Shown here in pieces: positions 12,668 through 29,494 of a stretch of DNA of 64,000 bases. Origin of the DNA: Crossiella equi (lineage in GTDB: Bacteria; Actinomycetota; Actinomycetes; Mycobacteriales; Pseudonocardiaceae). Each line of letters starts with the position of its first letter. Position 1 is the stretch's first letter. The notes under the pieces are model-generated. The model saw only the letters and a program-made list of their open reading frames with translations, ran no database searches and was not told where the DNA came from. Location: positions 6,309,786 to 6,373,785 of the forward strand of contig NZ_JAGIOO010000001.1 in assembly GCF_017876755.1 (NCBI RefSeq). The letters run 5' to 3'. A program made the position numbers and the translations under genes.

Positions 12668-12810
12668 TTGACGCCTGGCCGGACCGGGGTCTAGCGTCGG
12701 CAGGGTGCAGCGCAAGACCTTCCTCGTACTTCCCAGGCGCGTCGACGCCTAGGAAGCACTCGTCGACGCGCAACCCTCGTACGGCCAACCCTGGTCGGCG
12801 GGGGTTTTTT
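12668..12810 (+). promoter_or_regulatory. ilvBNC promoter and leader-peptide attenuator
   Basis: TTGACG (12668-12673), an 18-bp spacer and TAGCGT (12692-12697) place transcription start at about 12705, the first base of the leader GTG. After the leader, a perfect 11-bp inverted repeat (12737-12747 with 12761-12771, built on GCGTCGACG) covers its last codons and stop. A terminator stem follows (12772-12786 with 12793-12806) ending in six T. This is the layout of a transcription attenuator for branched-chain amino acid supply. The pairing model is by eye. Confidence 0.85.
12705..12752 (+). CDS. ilvB leader peptide, 15 residues
   Basis: GTG-initiated peptide MQRKTFLVLPRRVDA ending at TAG. The core Leu-Val-Leu uses CTC-GTA-CTT; GTA and CTT are rare in neighbouring genes, which suits supply-sensing. 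There is no ribosome site upstream and the start codon sits at the predicted transcript 5' end, so translation is probably leaderless. The last codons lie in the 5' arm of the first hairpin. Streptomyces ilvB leaders are recalled to have a similar ILVLGKRVG core. Confidence 0.85.
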   Translation: MQRKTFLVLPRRVDA

Positions 12811-12851
12811 GTTGCCCGCAGCTCGCCCACACCGAACACGAGGCAGACCCG

Positions 12852-25964: not shown

Positions 25965-26140
25965 GGCGGAGCGCTCCCTTCACGGGCCGAGCAGGCAGGG
26001 GCTGAGCAGGATGGAGTAACGCCGGTGCGGCACGGGGCGACAACCCGGTGATCATTCCGATACGTTGCGGCCCATCAGATCAGAGACTGCTCCGGCCGCG
26101 CCCGCGCCGGACAGGCCAATTCCGCGGAGGTGGACTGCGG

Positions 26141-27622
26141 GTGTCCGCTCGTCTGGGCAAACCAGCCATCAGCGTCACCCGTCTGGCTGGACTACTCCAG
26201 GGTTGGACGGAGGACACCGGCCCGCTGCACCACCGCCTCGCCGGGGCCGTCCGGCAGCTCGTGGAGACCGGGGAGCTGCCCGAGGGCACCACGCTGCCCG
26301 CCGAGCGCGCCATGGCCGTGGCGCTGGCGGTCAGCCGGTCCACCGTGGTCGCCGCCTACGACAACCTCCGCAGCGAGGGCTGGCTGGCCAGCCGCCGGGG
26401 GAGCGGCACCTGGGTGCGGCGGCCCGGCATCGACTACCCGGCGCCCGAAGCGCGGCCCGGCCTGCTCGGGCGGCGCAGCGGCGCGGTGCCCGCCTCGCTG
26501 ACCGGCGCGCACCTGCCCAACCCGCCGGACATCGTCGACATGTCCACCGGCGCGCTGCCCGGCCTGCCGATGGTCGCCGAGATCGCCGCCCAGCTCGGTG
26601 CCGAGGACTACCGGAGGCTGCTGGACCACCACGGCTACTTCACCGGCGGGCTGCCCGCGCTGCGCGAGGCCCTGGTCGCCCAGCTGGCCGAGCGGGGCGT
26701 GCCGTCGGTGGCCGAGGACCTCATCGTCACCAGCGGCTCCCAGCAGGCCGTGGACACCCTCGCCCAGGGGCTGCTGCAGCCCGGTGACGAGGTGGTGCTG
26801 GAGGAGCCGACCTACCGGGGCGCGCTGGAGGCCTTCCGGGCGCGCGGGGCCAAGGTGCTCTCCGTCCCGGTGCGCACCGGCCGACGTGGGCCGGGCGGGG
26901 TGGACATCGAGGTGCTGGAGCGCCTGCTCGACTCCCGCCGCCCCCGGCTGCTCTACCTGCTGCCCACCGCGCACAACCCGACCGGCGCCACCCTGGGCCT
27001 GGCCGACCGGCTGCGCGTGGTGCGCGCGGCCGCCGCGTGCGGGGTCGCGGTGGTCGACGACGGGTCCACTGTGGACACCTCGCTGAGCTGGCCGCCGCCC
27101 GCGCCGCTGGCCGCGGTGGCCGCCGAGCACGGCGTGCCCGCCACCGTGTTCTCCGTCGGCTCGCTGTCCAAGCTGTTCTGGGGCGGCCTGCGGGTCGGCT
27201 GGGTGCACGGGCCCAGCGAGCTGATCGCGCGGCTGAGCCGGGTGAAGAACGCCGCCGACCTCGGCAGCTCGGTGCCCGGGCAGCTGCTCGGGCTGAAGCT
27301 GTTGCCGCACAGCGCCACCGCCCGCGCGCAGCGCGTCGCCCAGCTCACCACCGGCCTGCACGCCGCCGAGTCCGCCGCCCGGGAGTTCCTGCCCGGCTGG
27401 GAGTTCGCCCGGCCGCTGGGCGGGGCCGCGCTGTGGCTGCGCGCACCGGGCGTGGACGCGGTGGCGCTGGCCGCCAAGGCCTCCCGGCACGGTGTGCTGG
27501 TGGTGCCCGGACCGGCCTACTCGGCGGCCGAGGGCCTGCGCGAGTACCTGCGCGTCGGCTACGCCACGTCACCGGACCGCGTCCGGGAGGGTTTCCGGCG
27601 GCTGGCTTCGGCGGCGGAATGA
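26141..27622 (+). CDS. MocR-type regulator (GntR helix-turn-helix plus aminotransferase domain)
   Basis: A 493-residue protein from GTG 26141, with GGAGG 10 nt upstream. Residues about 25-95 are a GntR winged helix (LPAERAMAVALAVSRSTVVA; RRGSGTWVRRPG). The rest is a type I aminotransferase fold with the AHNPTGATLG motif and PLP-lysine context SVGSLSKLFWGGLRVGW. The usual EDDYD is replaced by VVDDGSTVD, as in some MocR subgroups. It is divergent from the Tm-1-like operon, its likely target. PLP or an amino acid derivative would be the effector. Confidence 0.9.
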   Translation: MSARLGKPAISVTRLAGLLQGWTEDTGPLHHRLAGAVRQLVETGELPEGTTLPAERAMAVALAVSRSTVVAAYDNLRSEGWLASRRGSGTWVRRPGIDYPAPEARPGLLGRRSGAVPASLTGAHLPNPPDIVDMSTGALPGLPMVAEIAAQLGAEDYRRLLDHHGYFTGGLPALREALVAQLAERGVPSVAEDLIVTSGSQQAVDTLAQGLLQPGDEVVLEEPTYRGALEAFRARGAKVLSVPVRTGRRGPGGVDIEVLERLLDSRRPRLLYLLPTAHNPTGATLGLADRLRVVRAAAACGVAVVDDGSTVDTSLSWPPPAPLAAVAAEHGVPATVFSVGSLSKLFWGGLRVGWVHGPSELIARLSRVKNAADLGSSVPGQLLGLKLLPHSATARAQRVAQLTTGLHAAESAAREFLPGWEFARPLGGAALWLRAPGVDAVALAAKASRHGVLVVPGPAYSAAEGLREYLRVGYATSPDRVREGFRRLASAAE

Positions 27623-27662
27623 GCTGGGGACTCCCAGGTGCTGGGAACACTCGTCCGTGTGC

Positions 27663-27803
27663 TGGATATTCGGCGGGGGTGTGTGGCAGCATCTCCACCG
27701 TGACTCACCGTGCCGTGATCATTATTTGCCAGCGCGTCGGGTAGTGCCTCCGCCCAGGAGCACCCGACGCGCAGACCTCTCGCACCTTGCGGGGGGTCTT
27801 TTT
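27663..27803 (+). promoter_or_regulatory. cimA leader: promoter and isoleucine-type attenuator
   Basis: TGGATA (27663-27668), an 18-bp spacer and CAGCAT (27687-27692) place transcription start at about 27700, the leader GTG. A perfect 10-bp stem GCGCGTCGGG (27732-27741) / CCCGACGCGC (27762-27771) covers the leader's end. A terminator stem follows: 27773-27784 with 27788-27799, then T run. CCTCCGC (27747-27753) could instead pair with GCGGGGG (27789-27795), giving an antiterminator when a ribosome stalls on the Ile codons. The promoter match is weak; the hairpins are strong. Confidence 0.85.
27700..27744 (+). CDS. cimA leader peptide with Ile-Ile-Ile, 14 residues
   Basis: GTG-initiated MTHRAVIIICQRVG, ending at TAG. 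The three consecutive Ile codons are ATC-ATT-ATT; ATT is rare in this DNA. The gene 110 bp downstream makes citramalate, the first committed intermediate of pyruvate-derived isoleucine. No ribosome site precedes it, consistent with leaderless translation. The ending QRVG-stop parallels RRVDA-stop of the ilvB leader, and both place GCGCGTCG in the first hairpin. Confidence 0.85.
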   Translation: MTHRAVIIICQRVG

Positions 27804-27853
27804 GTTTTCCCGGACACCCACCACGCAGGACACCCGGCCACCTGGAGCCCGCA

Positions 27854-29494
27854 GTGACCTCCCGCACCAGCCCCGAAGGCACTCCGCTCGGCGACGCTTT
27901 CCACGTCTACGACACGACCCTGCGCGACGGCGCGCAGCGCGAGGGCGTCTCGTACTCGGCCACCGACAAGCTCGCGGTGGCCCGGCTGCTGGACTCCCTG
28001 GGGGTCGGGTTCATCGAGGGCGGCTGGCCGGGCGCGCTGCCCAAGGACACCGAGTTCTTCCAGCGCGCCGCGGCCGGGGAGCTCCAGCTCCGGCACGCCG
28101 CGCTGGTGGCCTTCGGCGCCACCCGCAAGCCGGGCGGCCGGGCCGAGCAGGACGCGCAGGTGCGGGCCCTGCTTGACTCCCAGGCCCCGGTGGTCACGCT
28201 GGTGGCCAAGTCCGACCGGCGGCACGTGGAGCGCGCGCTGCGCACCACGGTCGCCGAGGCGGCCGCGATGGTCGCCGACACGGTGTCCTTCCTGGTCGGA
28301 CAGGGCCGCCGGGTCTTCCTGGACGCCGAACACTTCTTCGACGGCTACGCCTTCGACCCGGACTGCGCGCTGCGCGTGCTCGGTGCCGGGGTCGAGGCGG
28401 GCGCGGACGTCGTCGTCCTCTGCGACACCAACGGCGGGCAGCTGCCGCTGGGCATCGCCGAGACCGTCCGCGAGGTGGTGGACCGCACCGGGTTCCGGGT
28501 CGGCATCCACTGCCAGGATGACACGGCCTGCGCCGTGGCCAACAGCGTCGCCGCCGTGCAGGCGGGGGCGAGCCACGTGCAGTGCACCGCGAACGGCTAC
28601 GGGGAACGGGCGGGCAACGCCGACCTGTTCGCCGTGGTGGCGAATCTGGTGACCAAGCTCGACAAGCCGGTGCTACCCACCGGGGCGCTTGGCGAGCTCA
28701 CCCGCGTTTCCCATGCCCTGGCCGAGATCGCCAACATCGCCCCCGACGCCCACCAGGCGTATGTCGGGTCCGCGGCGTTCGCCCACAAGGCGGGCCTGCA
28801 CGCGAGTGCGATCAAGGTCGACCCGGATCTGTACAACCACATCGATCCGGAGACCGTCGGCAACGGCATGCGGGTGCTGGTCACCGAGATGGCCGGCCGG
28901 GCCAGTATCGAGCTCAAGGGAAAGGAGCTCGGACTGGACCTGGCCGGCCAGGGGGAGGCCGTGGGCCGCGCGGTGCGCAAGGTCAAGGAGCTGGAGGCGC
29001 GGGGCTGGTCCTTCGAGGCCGCCGACGCCTCCCTGGAGCTGCTGCTGCGCGGCGAGATGTCCACTTCGGACAGCGTCGACGGGCCGCTGGGCCTGCCGTT
29101 CGTGCTGGACTCCTACCGCGTGCTGCTGGACCACCGCCCGGACGGCGTGGTGGTGGCCGAGGCCACGGTCAAGGTCTTCGTGGGCGGCGAACGGGTGATC
29201 GCCACCGCTGAGGGCAACGGCCCGGTGCACGCCCTGGACGCCGCGCTGCGCCAGGCCCTCACCCCGCACCTGCCCTGGCTGGCCGAGGTCGAGCTGGTCG
29301 ACTACAAGGTGCGCATCCTCACCGAGACCTCCGGCACCGACGCCGTCACCCGGGTGCTGGTGGAGTCCTCCGACGGCGAGCGCGAGTGGACCACCGTGGG
29401 TGTGCACGGCAACATCGTCGAGGCCAGCTGGCTGGCGCTGTGCGACGCGCTCGCGCACAAGGCCATGCGCGTGGGGACACTGTCCGCGCACTGA
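27854..29494 (+). CDS. cimA: citramalate synthase
   Basis: A 546-residue enzyme condensing pyruvate and acetyl-CoA to (R)-citramalate, the threonine-independent entry to isoleucine. HVYDTTLRDGAQREGVSYS and FIEGGWPGALPKDTEFF mark the CimA branch and not LeuA. The metal site is in VGIHCQDDTACAVANS and CTANGYGERAGNADL. The C-terminal LeuA-type allosteric domain (about residues 410-546) would bind isoleucine. GTG start at 27854. It sits 50 bp after an attenuator whose leader encodes Ile codons. Confidence 0.94.
   Translation: MTSRTSPEGTPLGDAFHVYDTTLRDGAQREGVSYSATDKLAVARLLDSLGVGFIEGGWPGALPKDTEFFQRAAAGELQLRHAALVAFGATRKPGGRAEQDAQVRALLDSQAPVVTLVAKSDRRHVERALRTTVAEAAAMVADTVSFLVGQGRRVFLDAEHFFDGYAFDPDCALRVLGAGVEAGADVVVLCDTNGGQLPLGIAETVREVVDRTGFRVGIHCQDDTACAVANSVAAVQAGASHVQCTANGYGERAGNADLFAVVANLVTKLDKPVLPTGALGELTRVSHALAEIANIAPDAHQAYVGSAAFAHKAGLHASAIKVDPDLYNHIDPETVGNGMRVLVTEMAGRASIELKGKELGLDLAGQGEAVGRAVRKVKELEARGWSFEAADASLELLLRGEMSTSDSVDGPLGLPFVLDSYRVLLDHRPDGVVVAEATVKVFVGGERVIATAEGNGPVHALDAALRQALTPHLPWLAEVELVDYKVRILTETSGTDAVTRVLVESSDGEREWTTVGVHGNIVEASWLALCDALAHKAMRVGTLSAH

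Follow-up and report, generated by a model that had tools for sequence, protein, structure and literature searches.

Proteobacterial attenuators of the trp, ilv and his type combine control codons with a terminator and a logic of coupling. In the actinobacterium Corynebacterium glutamicum, changing three Val codons of the ilvBNC leader to Ala is reported to abolish valine-dependent expression (PMC11857589), and in Mycobacterium tuberculosis an LVVI-to-AAAA change in the ilvB1 leader is reported to abolish induction. A ribosome at the ilvB1 stop codon is proposed to mask an anti-terminator hairpin, which forms when the ribosome is held at the control codons (PMC13236596). Changes to candidate control codons of the Streptomyces coelicolor ilvB leader were reported to leave regulation unaffected (PMC1262725), a result that counts against codon-dependent control. 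A survey published in 2005 by Seliverstov described trp, cys, ilvB, leuS and leuA leaders and ileS T-boxes in Actinobacteria (PMC1262725), and cimA is not among the leaders that its text sets out. RNA sequencing of Streptomyces lividans reported eight leader peptides, with no cimA leader among those its main text presents (PMC8079986), which counts against the element reported here. The term cimA is absent from the main texts of PMC10272879, PMC8079986, PMC4833913, PMC2965389 and PMC13236596, and searches of open-licence PMC papers returned nothing relevant on a cimA or citramalate leader, in agreement with the original prediction that an Ile attenuator on an actinobacterial cimA is not known to have been described.

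Here we report a leader element in front of cimA, the gene for citramalate synthase, in a 64,000-nucleotide stretch of DNA (the window) from a 9.44-Mb host genome (Table 1). We hold with good confidence that the element is a ribosome-mediated transcription attenuator that senses charged tRNA-Ile and controls cimA, and, from its sequence, the best reading makes it a sister of the ilvB attenuators already known from actinobacteria. At isoleucine shortage it very probably turns the isoleucine pathway on and, if so, would be the device that regulates isoleucine synthesis from pyruvate across much of the actinobacteria. Its layout is that described for actinobacterial ilvB leaders (PMC1262725; PMC13236596; S. 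lividans ilvL, MRTRILVLGKRVG, PMC8079986). Like C. glutamicum ilvBNC and the ilvB-II leaders, as described in Narunsky 2023 (PMC10272879) and Ryabchenko 2025 (PMC11857589), it has a short ORF with branched-chain codons, which in C. glutamicum starts adjoining the transcription start, a hairpin over the end of the ORF, an intrinsic terminator and a branched-chain biosynthesis gene downstream. Unlike in those systems, the target is cimA rather than ilvB and the control codons are Ile only; the antiterminator and terminator of C. glutamicum ilvBNC overlap by GCC (PMC11857589), whereas the hairpin and terminator of the cimA element have no base in common. The ilvB leaders of the window's family are rich in Leu and Val, whereas the cimA leaders read Ile. 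With the Proteobacterial attenuators the element shares control codons, a terminator and the coupling logic, but its control codons precede the first hairpin instead of forming part of it, its start is probably leaderless, and no 2:3 antiterminator was found.

Table 1. Coordinates of the cimA leader element and of related leaders (window positions, except where a locus identifier is given).
Feature	Position	Strand	Description
Promoter-like sequence	27662..27692	+	CTGGAT (−35-like, 27662-27667) and TGTGG-CAGCAT (−10-like, hexamer 27687-27692); sequence reading
Leader ORF	27700..27744	+	14 codons, GTG 27700 to TAG 27744; translation VTHRAVIIICQRVG, then stop
Control codons	27718..27726	+	ATC-ATT-ATT (Ile-Ile-Ile); first bases 14, 11 and 8 nt 5′ of P1
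Hairpin P1	27732..27772	+	perfect 11-bp inverted repeat, 27732-27742 / 27762-27772
Intrinsic terminator	27773..27808	+	stem 27773-27784 / 27788-27799, 12 pairs including G-U, then U-run
cimA, citramalate synthase (putative regulated gene)	27854..29494	+	TIGR00977, 596 bits (cut-off 450)
ilvB sister attenuator (putative)	12705..12812	+	leader VQRKTFLVLPRRVDA, then stop, from GTG 12705; P1-like stem 12737-12747 / 12761-12771; terminator
Leaders before dehydrogenase-family gene	L342 2692-2782; L343 240-330; L344 182-275; L345 2677-2767	−; +; +; −	
Ile leaders in two class genomes	L346 2634-2727; L347 2734-2826	−; −	MFALVIIM; MFTPRIII
Weaker R1 matches before leuB-like gene	L076 3872-3964; L079 2849-2941; L057 3943-4034		

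By sequence and structure, the locus has two features of attenuators in general, a leader ORF in which codons for the pathway product stand in a row and an intrinsic terminator, and it has the upstream ORF with branched-chain codons, the hairpin and the terminator of ilvB-type leaders, with leaderlessness inferred. The original prediction had described a 14-codon leader with three consecutive Ile codons, a perfect stem over its last codons, a U-run terminator and then cimA; all of these are present, except that the stem comprises 11 rather than 10 bp. P1 begins within the last codons of the leader and takes in the first base of its stop codon. The terminator stem is followed by TTTTTGTTTT, counted from 27799, and this is the only terminator-like site in 27600-27900, where shuffled sequences average 0.2. 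The minimum free energy of 27690-27815 is −55.9 kcal/mol (z −5.1), and none of 200 shuffles was equally stable. The promoter-like sequence, which a sigma-70 consensus scan did not pick up, ends 7 nt before the leader start codon; judging from this spacing, the transcript is probably leaderless and the ORF translated. An Rfam search of the whole window at gathering score returned two tRNAs only and no T-box, riboswitch or leader, and at a relaxed threshold all matches in 27550-27950 lay far under gathering. A gene for a MocR-like (GntR/aminotransferase) regulator, at 26048-27622, lies immediately 5′ of the cimA leader; its top NCBIfam match is YczR-like, under that model's cut-off.

In the window's family, 129 of 150 genomes matched the element by DNA search, and these loci, with 11 of 80 named public cimA loci, make up a set of 140 loci in which some organisms occur twice (L003/L180 and L010/L109). 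The gene downstream is cimA, rather than the ilvB of ilvB-type leaders, in 140/140 of these loci (tblastn, CimA identity at least 74.6%) and in 65 of 68 loci outside the family. Parsing of the leaders required a pair of neighbouring Ile codons as anchor, and all 140 loci had one; two loci (L194 and L207) failed only the start rule, leaving 138 parsed leaders, whose stop codons lie 68–191 nt 5′ of the aligned cimA start. Among these family leaders, 112 have three consecutive Ile codons and 26 have two, and the start codon is GTG in 75 and ATG in 63. A TGTGnCAnnAT-type motif stands 6–7 nt 5′ of the start codon in 110 leaders and at other distances in four, with 24 unmatched; because the motif ends so close to the start codon, leaderless transcripts would fit. 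From 82 non-redundant family elements we built a covariance model, R1, which matched 141 of the 150 family genomes; cimA and the element occur together in 140. Eleven strong R1 matches had been missed by the DNA search, ten of them in genomes with a citramalate synthase over the cut-off; in the other, G011, the citramalate synthase match is partial and below it. In ten family genomes no citramalate synthase exceeds the cut-off, and of these nine have no R1 match and one a weak match (G098, E 0.007). The element and cimA are thus present or absent together, apart from this weak match. The proposal of an Ile attenuator of cimA thus gains support from the conservation of the Ile codons, P1, the terminator and the position before cimA, and from the way the element tracks cimA across the 150 genomes. 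Citramalate synthase is under the cut-off or absent in G004, G014, G042, G050, G075, G082, G098, G118, G134 and G138.

The predicted pairing is supported by covariation. In the family alignment (A1, 82 rows, loci first reduced at 90% identity), 98.7% of the P1 and terminator cells are paired, changes on both sides occur in 7 of 20 pairs, in 34 cells versus 6.6 in shuffled alignments, and when the partners are slid by 1–3 columns, at most 59% of cells remain paired. The class alignment (A2) has 100 rows, 99 from cimA leaders and one from the ilvB leader of the window, and gave 97.7% paired cells with both-side changes in 13 pairs (191 cells versus 38 shuffled), although its rows were selected by and fitted to R1, which favours the structure and biases spacing counts towards the spacing of R1. 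For P1 by itself, the family alignment has both-side changes in 5 of 10 pairs and the class alignment in 6 of 10. Contrary evidence, as the original prediction framed it, would have been Ile codons or stems that are not conserved; both are conserved, and the stems covary. The P1 loop ranges from 3 to 51 nt in A2, whereas P1 and the terminator core adjoin, separated by 1 nt in 97 of the 100 rows and by 2 nt in the other three. As judged from this conservation and covariation in family and class, the window element exceeds chance.

The distance between the control codons and the hairpin is almost fixed. In all 99 cimA rows of A2, counted independently of the start codon, an Ile triplet lies 8–14 nt 5′ of P1, with its first base at −11 in 83 rows, −8 in 74 and −14 in 43; offsets of −12 and −9 occur in 12 rows each, and others are rare. 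Short runs count against the reading: besides the 26 family leaders with two consecutive Ile codons, at least three class leaders (L270, L275 and L276) have one Ile codon only. Codon choice within the run is unusual, in that ATT accounts for 205 of the 396 Ile codons of family cimA leaders, versus 7 of 438 in 34 window ORFs, which were chosen by third-position GC above 0.88 and are thereby biased against ATT; among five family-identified genes the figure is 1 of 81. ATT takes the second place of the run in 119 of 138 family leaders, while the other leader codons have a third-position GC of 0.87. The toeprint edge of a ribosome lies at +15/16 from the P-site base, and with the −11 codon in the A site this edge falls at P1 base 1–2. 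With the ribosome front at P1 nucleotide 2, the remaining P1 pairs keep a mean probability of 0.90, compared with only 0.62 when the edge is at base 5; P1 could therefore still form in front of a ribosome stalled at −11. A ribosome terminating at the stop codon would cover the P1 5′ arm.

At the level of sequence, the Ile codons with their offsets, both P1 and the terminator, and the linkage to cimA are established by conservation, and sensing of Ile-tRNA by the cimA leader would follow from its codon content together with those ilvB leaders of actinobacteria that have been tested by experiment. The arrangement would suit the logic put forward for M. tuberculosis ilvB1 and C. glutamicum ilvBNC, P1 taking the part of the hairpin ahead of the stalled ribosome. 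In the mechanism that we propose, transcription would begin at or adjoining the leader start codon, as the promoter-like motif suggests, and a ribosome would load on the leaderless end. When Ile-tRNA is plentiful, the ribosome would reach the stop codon, which lies within or beside the P1 5′ arm, and cover this arm, the terminator would form and cimA would be off. When Ile-tRNA is short, the ribosome would stall at the Ile codons, mostly 11–14 nt 5′ of P1, P1 would form directly ahead of it, with the terminator beginning 0–1 nt after P1, and RNA polymerase would read through. Since P1 and the terminator share no base, we propose that ribosome and polymerase would occupy the same junction: in a stack of P1 on the terminator, the 5′ end, leading to the ribosome, and the 3′ end, leading to the polymerase, would leave from one point. 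The near-fixed distances from the Ile codons to P1 and from P1 to the terminator, together with the freely varying loops, suggest exclusion by bulk, and we infer that P1, the stalled ribosome and the polymerase sterically exclude the terminator. A purely thermodynamic version of this steric model is weakened by equilibrium folding, which shows no switch: the terminator has a mean pair probability of 0.95–0.99 in every state tested, 0.98 with the P1 5′ arm free and 0.95 with it masked (lowest single value 0.06, masked), and with the arm masked, none of the 82 elements has an equally good fold without the terminator. The simple layout of an Ile run, one hairpin, one nucleotide and a terminator suits tests of the limits of attenuation, and the near-fixed codon–hairpin distance and the enrichment of ATT yield clear predictions of how ribosomes stall on leaderless leaders, which extend to the missing codon effect reported at Streptomyces ilvB.

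Neither constrained folding and duplex scoring nor equilibrium folding revealed a conserved, mutually exclusive antiterminator pairing, and a classical 2:3 antiterminator was rejected as a candidate on the first two. This bears on the best surviving alternative, a trp-type attenuator with an overlooked antiterminator in which the freed P1 3′ arm pairs with the terminator, for example as a kinetic intermediate. Well-studied leader-peptide attenuators have a base-paired antiterminator. The hairpins of C. glutamicum ilvBNC are reported to have GCC in common (PMC11857589), and the P1 3′ arm can pair with the terminator 3′ arm at a family mean of −9.3 kcal/mol. However, the loop and P1 3′ arm pair with the terminator 5′ arm no better than shuffled loops do (−3.6 versus −4.0 kcal/mol), and the terminator persists at the 0.95 given above when the P1 5′ arm is masked. 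We regard such an antiterminator as unlikely, though with an appreciable chance of being right.

The original prediction had itself offered an antitermination model for Ile starvation, in which CCTCCGC in the P1 loop (27747-27753) pairs with the terminator 3′ arm and blocks termination. The pairing stands in the window, where the duplex of the loop with the 3′ arm reaches −14.1 kcal/mol against a shuffled-loop mean of −11.4, and the family shows a weak signal of the same kind (mean −9.5 versus −7.9 kcal/mol shuffled; mean percentile 0.33 for 82 loops and 0.39 for 15 non-redundant ones, against 0.55 for the P1 5′ arm as control target). It does not hold as a conserved feature, as 1 of 82 family loops contains CCTCCGC and 11 contain CTCCGC. 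Outside the family, 17 of 90 loops are only 3–5 nt long and the 64 loops of at least 8 nt pair at chance (mean percentile 0.48), and the family mean of the loop duplex is weaker than that of the terminator (−9.5 versus −16.8 kcal/mol), whose 3′ arm is made last. On the rarity of CCTCCGC and the chance-level pairing outside the family we rejected this pairing as a general mechanism, and the loop-based model now appears improbable.

Strong sequence conservation of P1 and the terminator, and the lack of an Rfam match that would assign the RNA to a known class, might suggest a ligand-binding riboswitch or a protein-binding RNA instead of a leader read by ribosomes. We consider this very improbable: the widely varying loops leave no conserved unpaired pocket, the conserved unpaired part is the Ile-codon run with start and stop in frame, and the position of the stop codon shifts between lineages. 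An ordinary terminator of the MocR-like gene, whose stop codon (27622) lies about 150 nt upstream, combined with a small ORF by chance, is already contradicted by the covarying unit of leader, P1 and terminator kept before cimA, and has almost no probability left.

A second leader in the window stands before ilvB, and its Leu-Val-Leu run (CTC GTA CTT) begins 14 nt 5′ of its own P1, matching the Ile run. The cimA-leader model R1 matches this ilvB leader (33.9 bits, E 3.7e-7), and conversely an ilvB-leader model, R2, built from 26 family ilvB leaders matches the cimA leader at 27700-27803 (36 bits, E 4.8e-9) and all 41 other cimA leaders supplied to it. The two leaders thus appear homologous in sequence and structure, a comparison that rests on the ilvB leaders of the family rather than on the published ilvB-II alignment, although they may instead have converged on the same GC-rich stem. 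Parsing from an LVL core set aside three of 30 ilvB leaders (L291, L306 and L308) for failing the start rule; the other 27 contain 72 Leu, 62 Val and 12 Ile codons and are enriched in GTA and CTT, each of which makes up less than 1% of its codon family in the 34 window ORFs. The cimA and ilvB copies look like one device with swapped codons, reading Leu and Val at the enzyme common to all three amino acids and Ile at the Ile-specific enzyme. The combined proposal, of an attenuator without antiterminator pairing whose terminator is excluded by bulk and whose sister copies split sensing between Leu/Val at ilvB and Ile at cimA, is one that we advance tentatively, as possible but somewhat doubtful. 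The presence of both leaders in one genome amounts to a natural codon-swap experiment on one scaffold.

Across the class, R1 matches 177 of 296 genomes (E ≤ 0.01), and TIGR00977 exceeds its cut-off in 230. About 60 class genomes have no match of cimA strength, and R1 matches eight of these. The 68 non-family matches examined came in two batches, with cimA downstream in 28/28 of one and 37/40 of the other; of the remaining three, two precede ilvB, both in genomes lacking a cimA match of full strength, and one precedes a small ACT-like gene. In family f2, R1 matches none of 24 genomes, all of which lack cimA, whereas in class family f19 none of 26 genomes is matched, though cimA matches strongly in most of them, and a scan of three f19 cimA loci with R1 gave no match. 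The element is thus absent from some lineages that carry cimA, which counts against the reading. Because the R1 genome search omitted the ilvB leader of the window, which the full window scan detected, these genome counts may miss weaker relatives. Among the 80 named cimA loci, a few of which start within cimA so that the leader region falls outside the record, 38 have an R1 match directly upstream with E < 1e-6, and L066 has one at 2e-4; those matched include loci of Amycolatopsis, Saccharothrix, Nonomuraea, Micromonospora, Cellulomonas and Demequina. Two extra R1 matches in the window's own genome (L213 and L214; 16 bits, E 1.1 and 1.7) were rejected as chance, since neither CimA nor IlvB matches at either site. 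One cimA match (L281, G202:C101:7133-8689) contains an in-frame TGA.

Related leaders also stand before other genes. In four family genomes (L342-L345), Ile leaders precede a Glu/Leu/Phe/Val dehydrogenase-family gene, assigned by Pfam for L344 and by tblastn at 75–76% identity for L342, L343 and L345; the leaders read MVFGLIIMCGAG at two loci, MSLGLIIIDGAG and MIFGSIIINGAG, with variant P1 and terminator. The L346 and L347 leaders precede an ACT-like protein of about 105 residues (ACT_4 match sub-threshold) and score above the cimA leaders of their own two genomes with R1. Weaker R1 matches lie before a leuB-like gene that stands about 2 kb 5′ of cimA, with leaders reading MTTSIIISIS (L076) and MATLIIISIS (L079) or with one Ile adjoining P1 (L057). 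At L076 the leader heads leuB-ilvE-cimA, in which leuB and ilvE were confirmed by family search.
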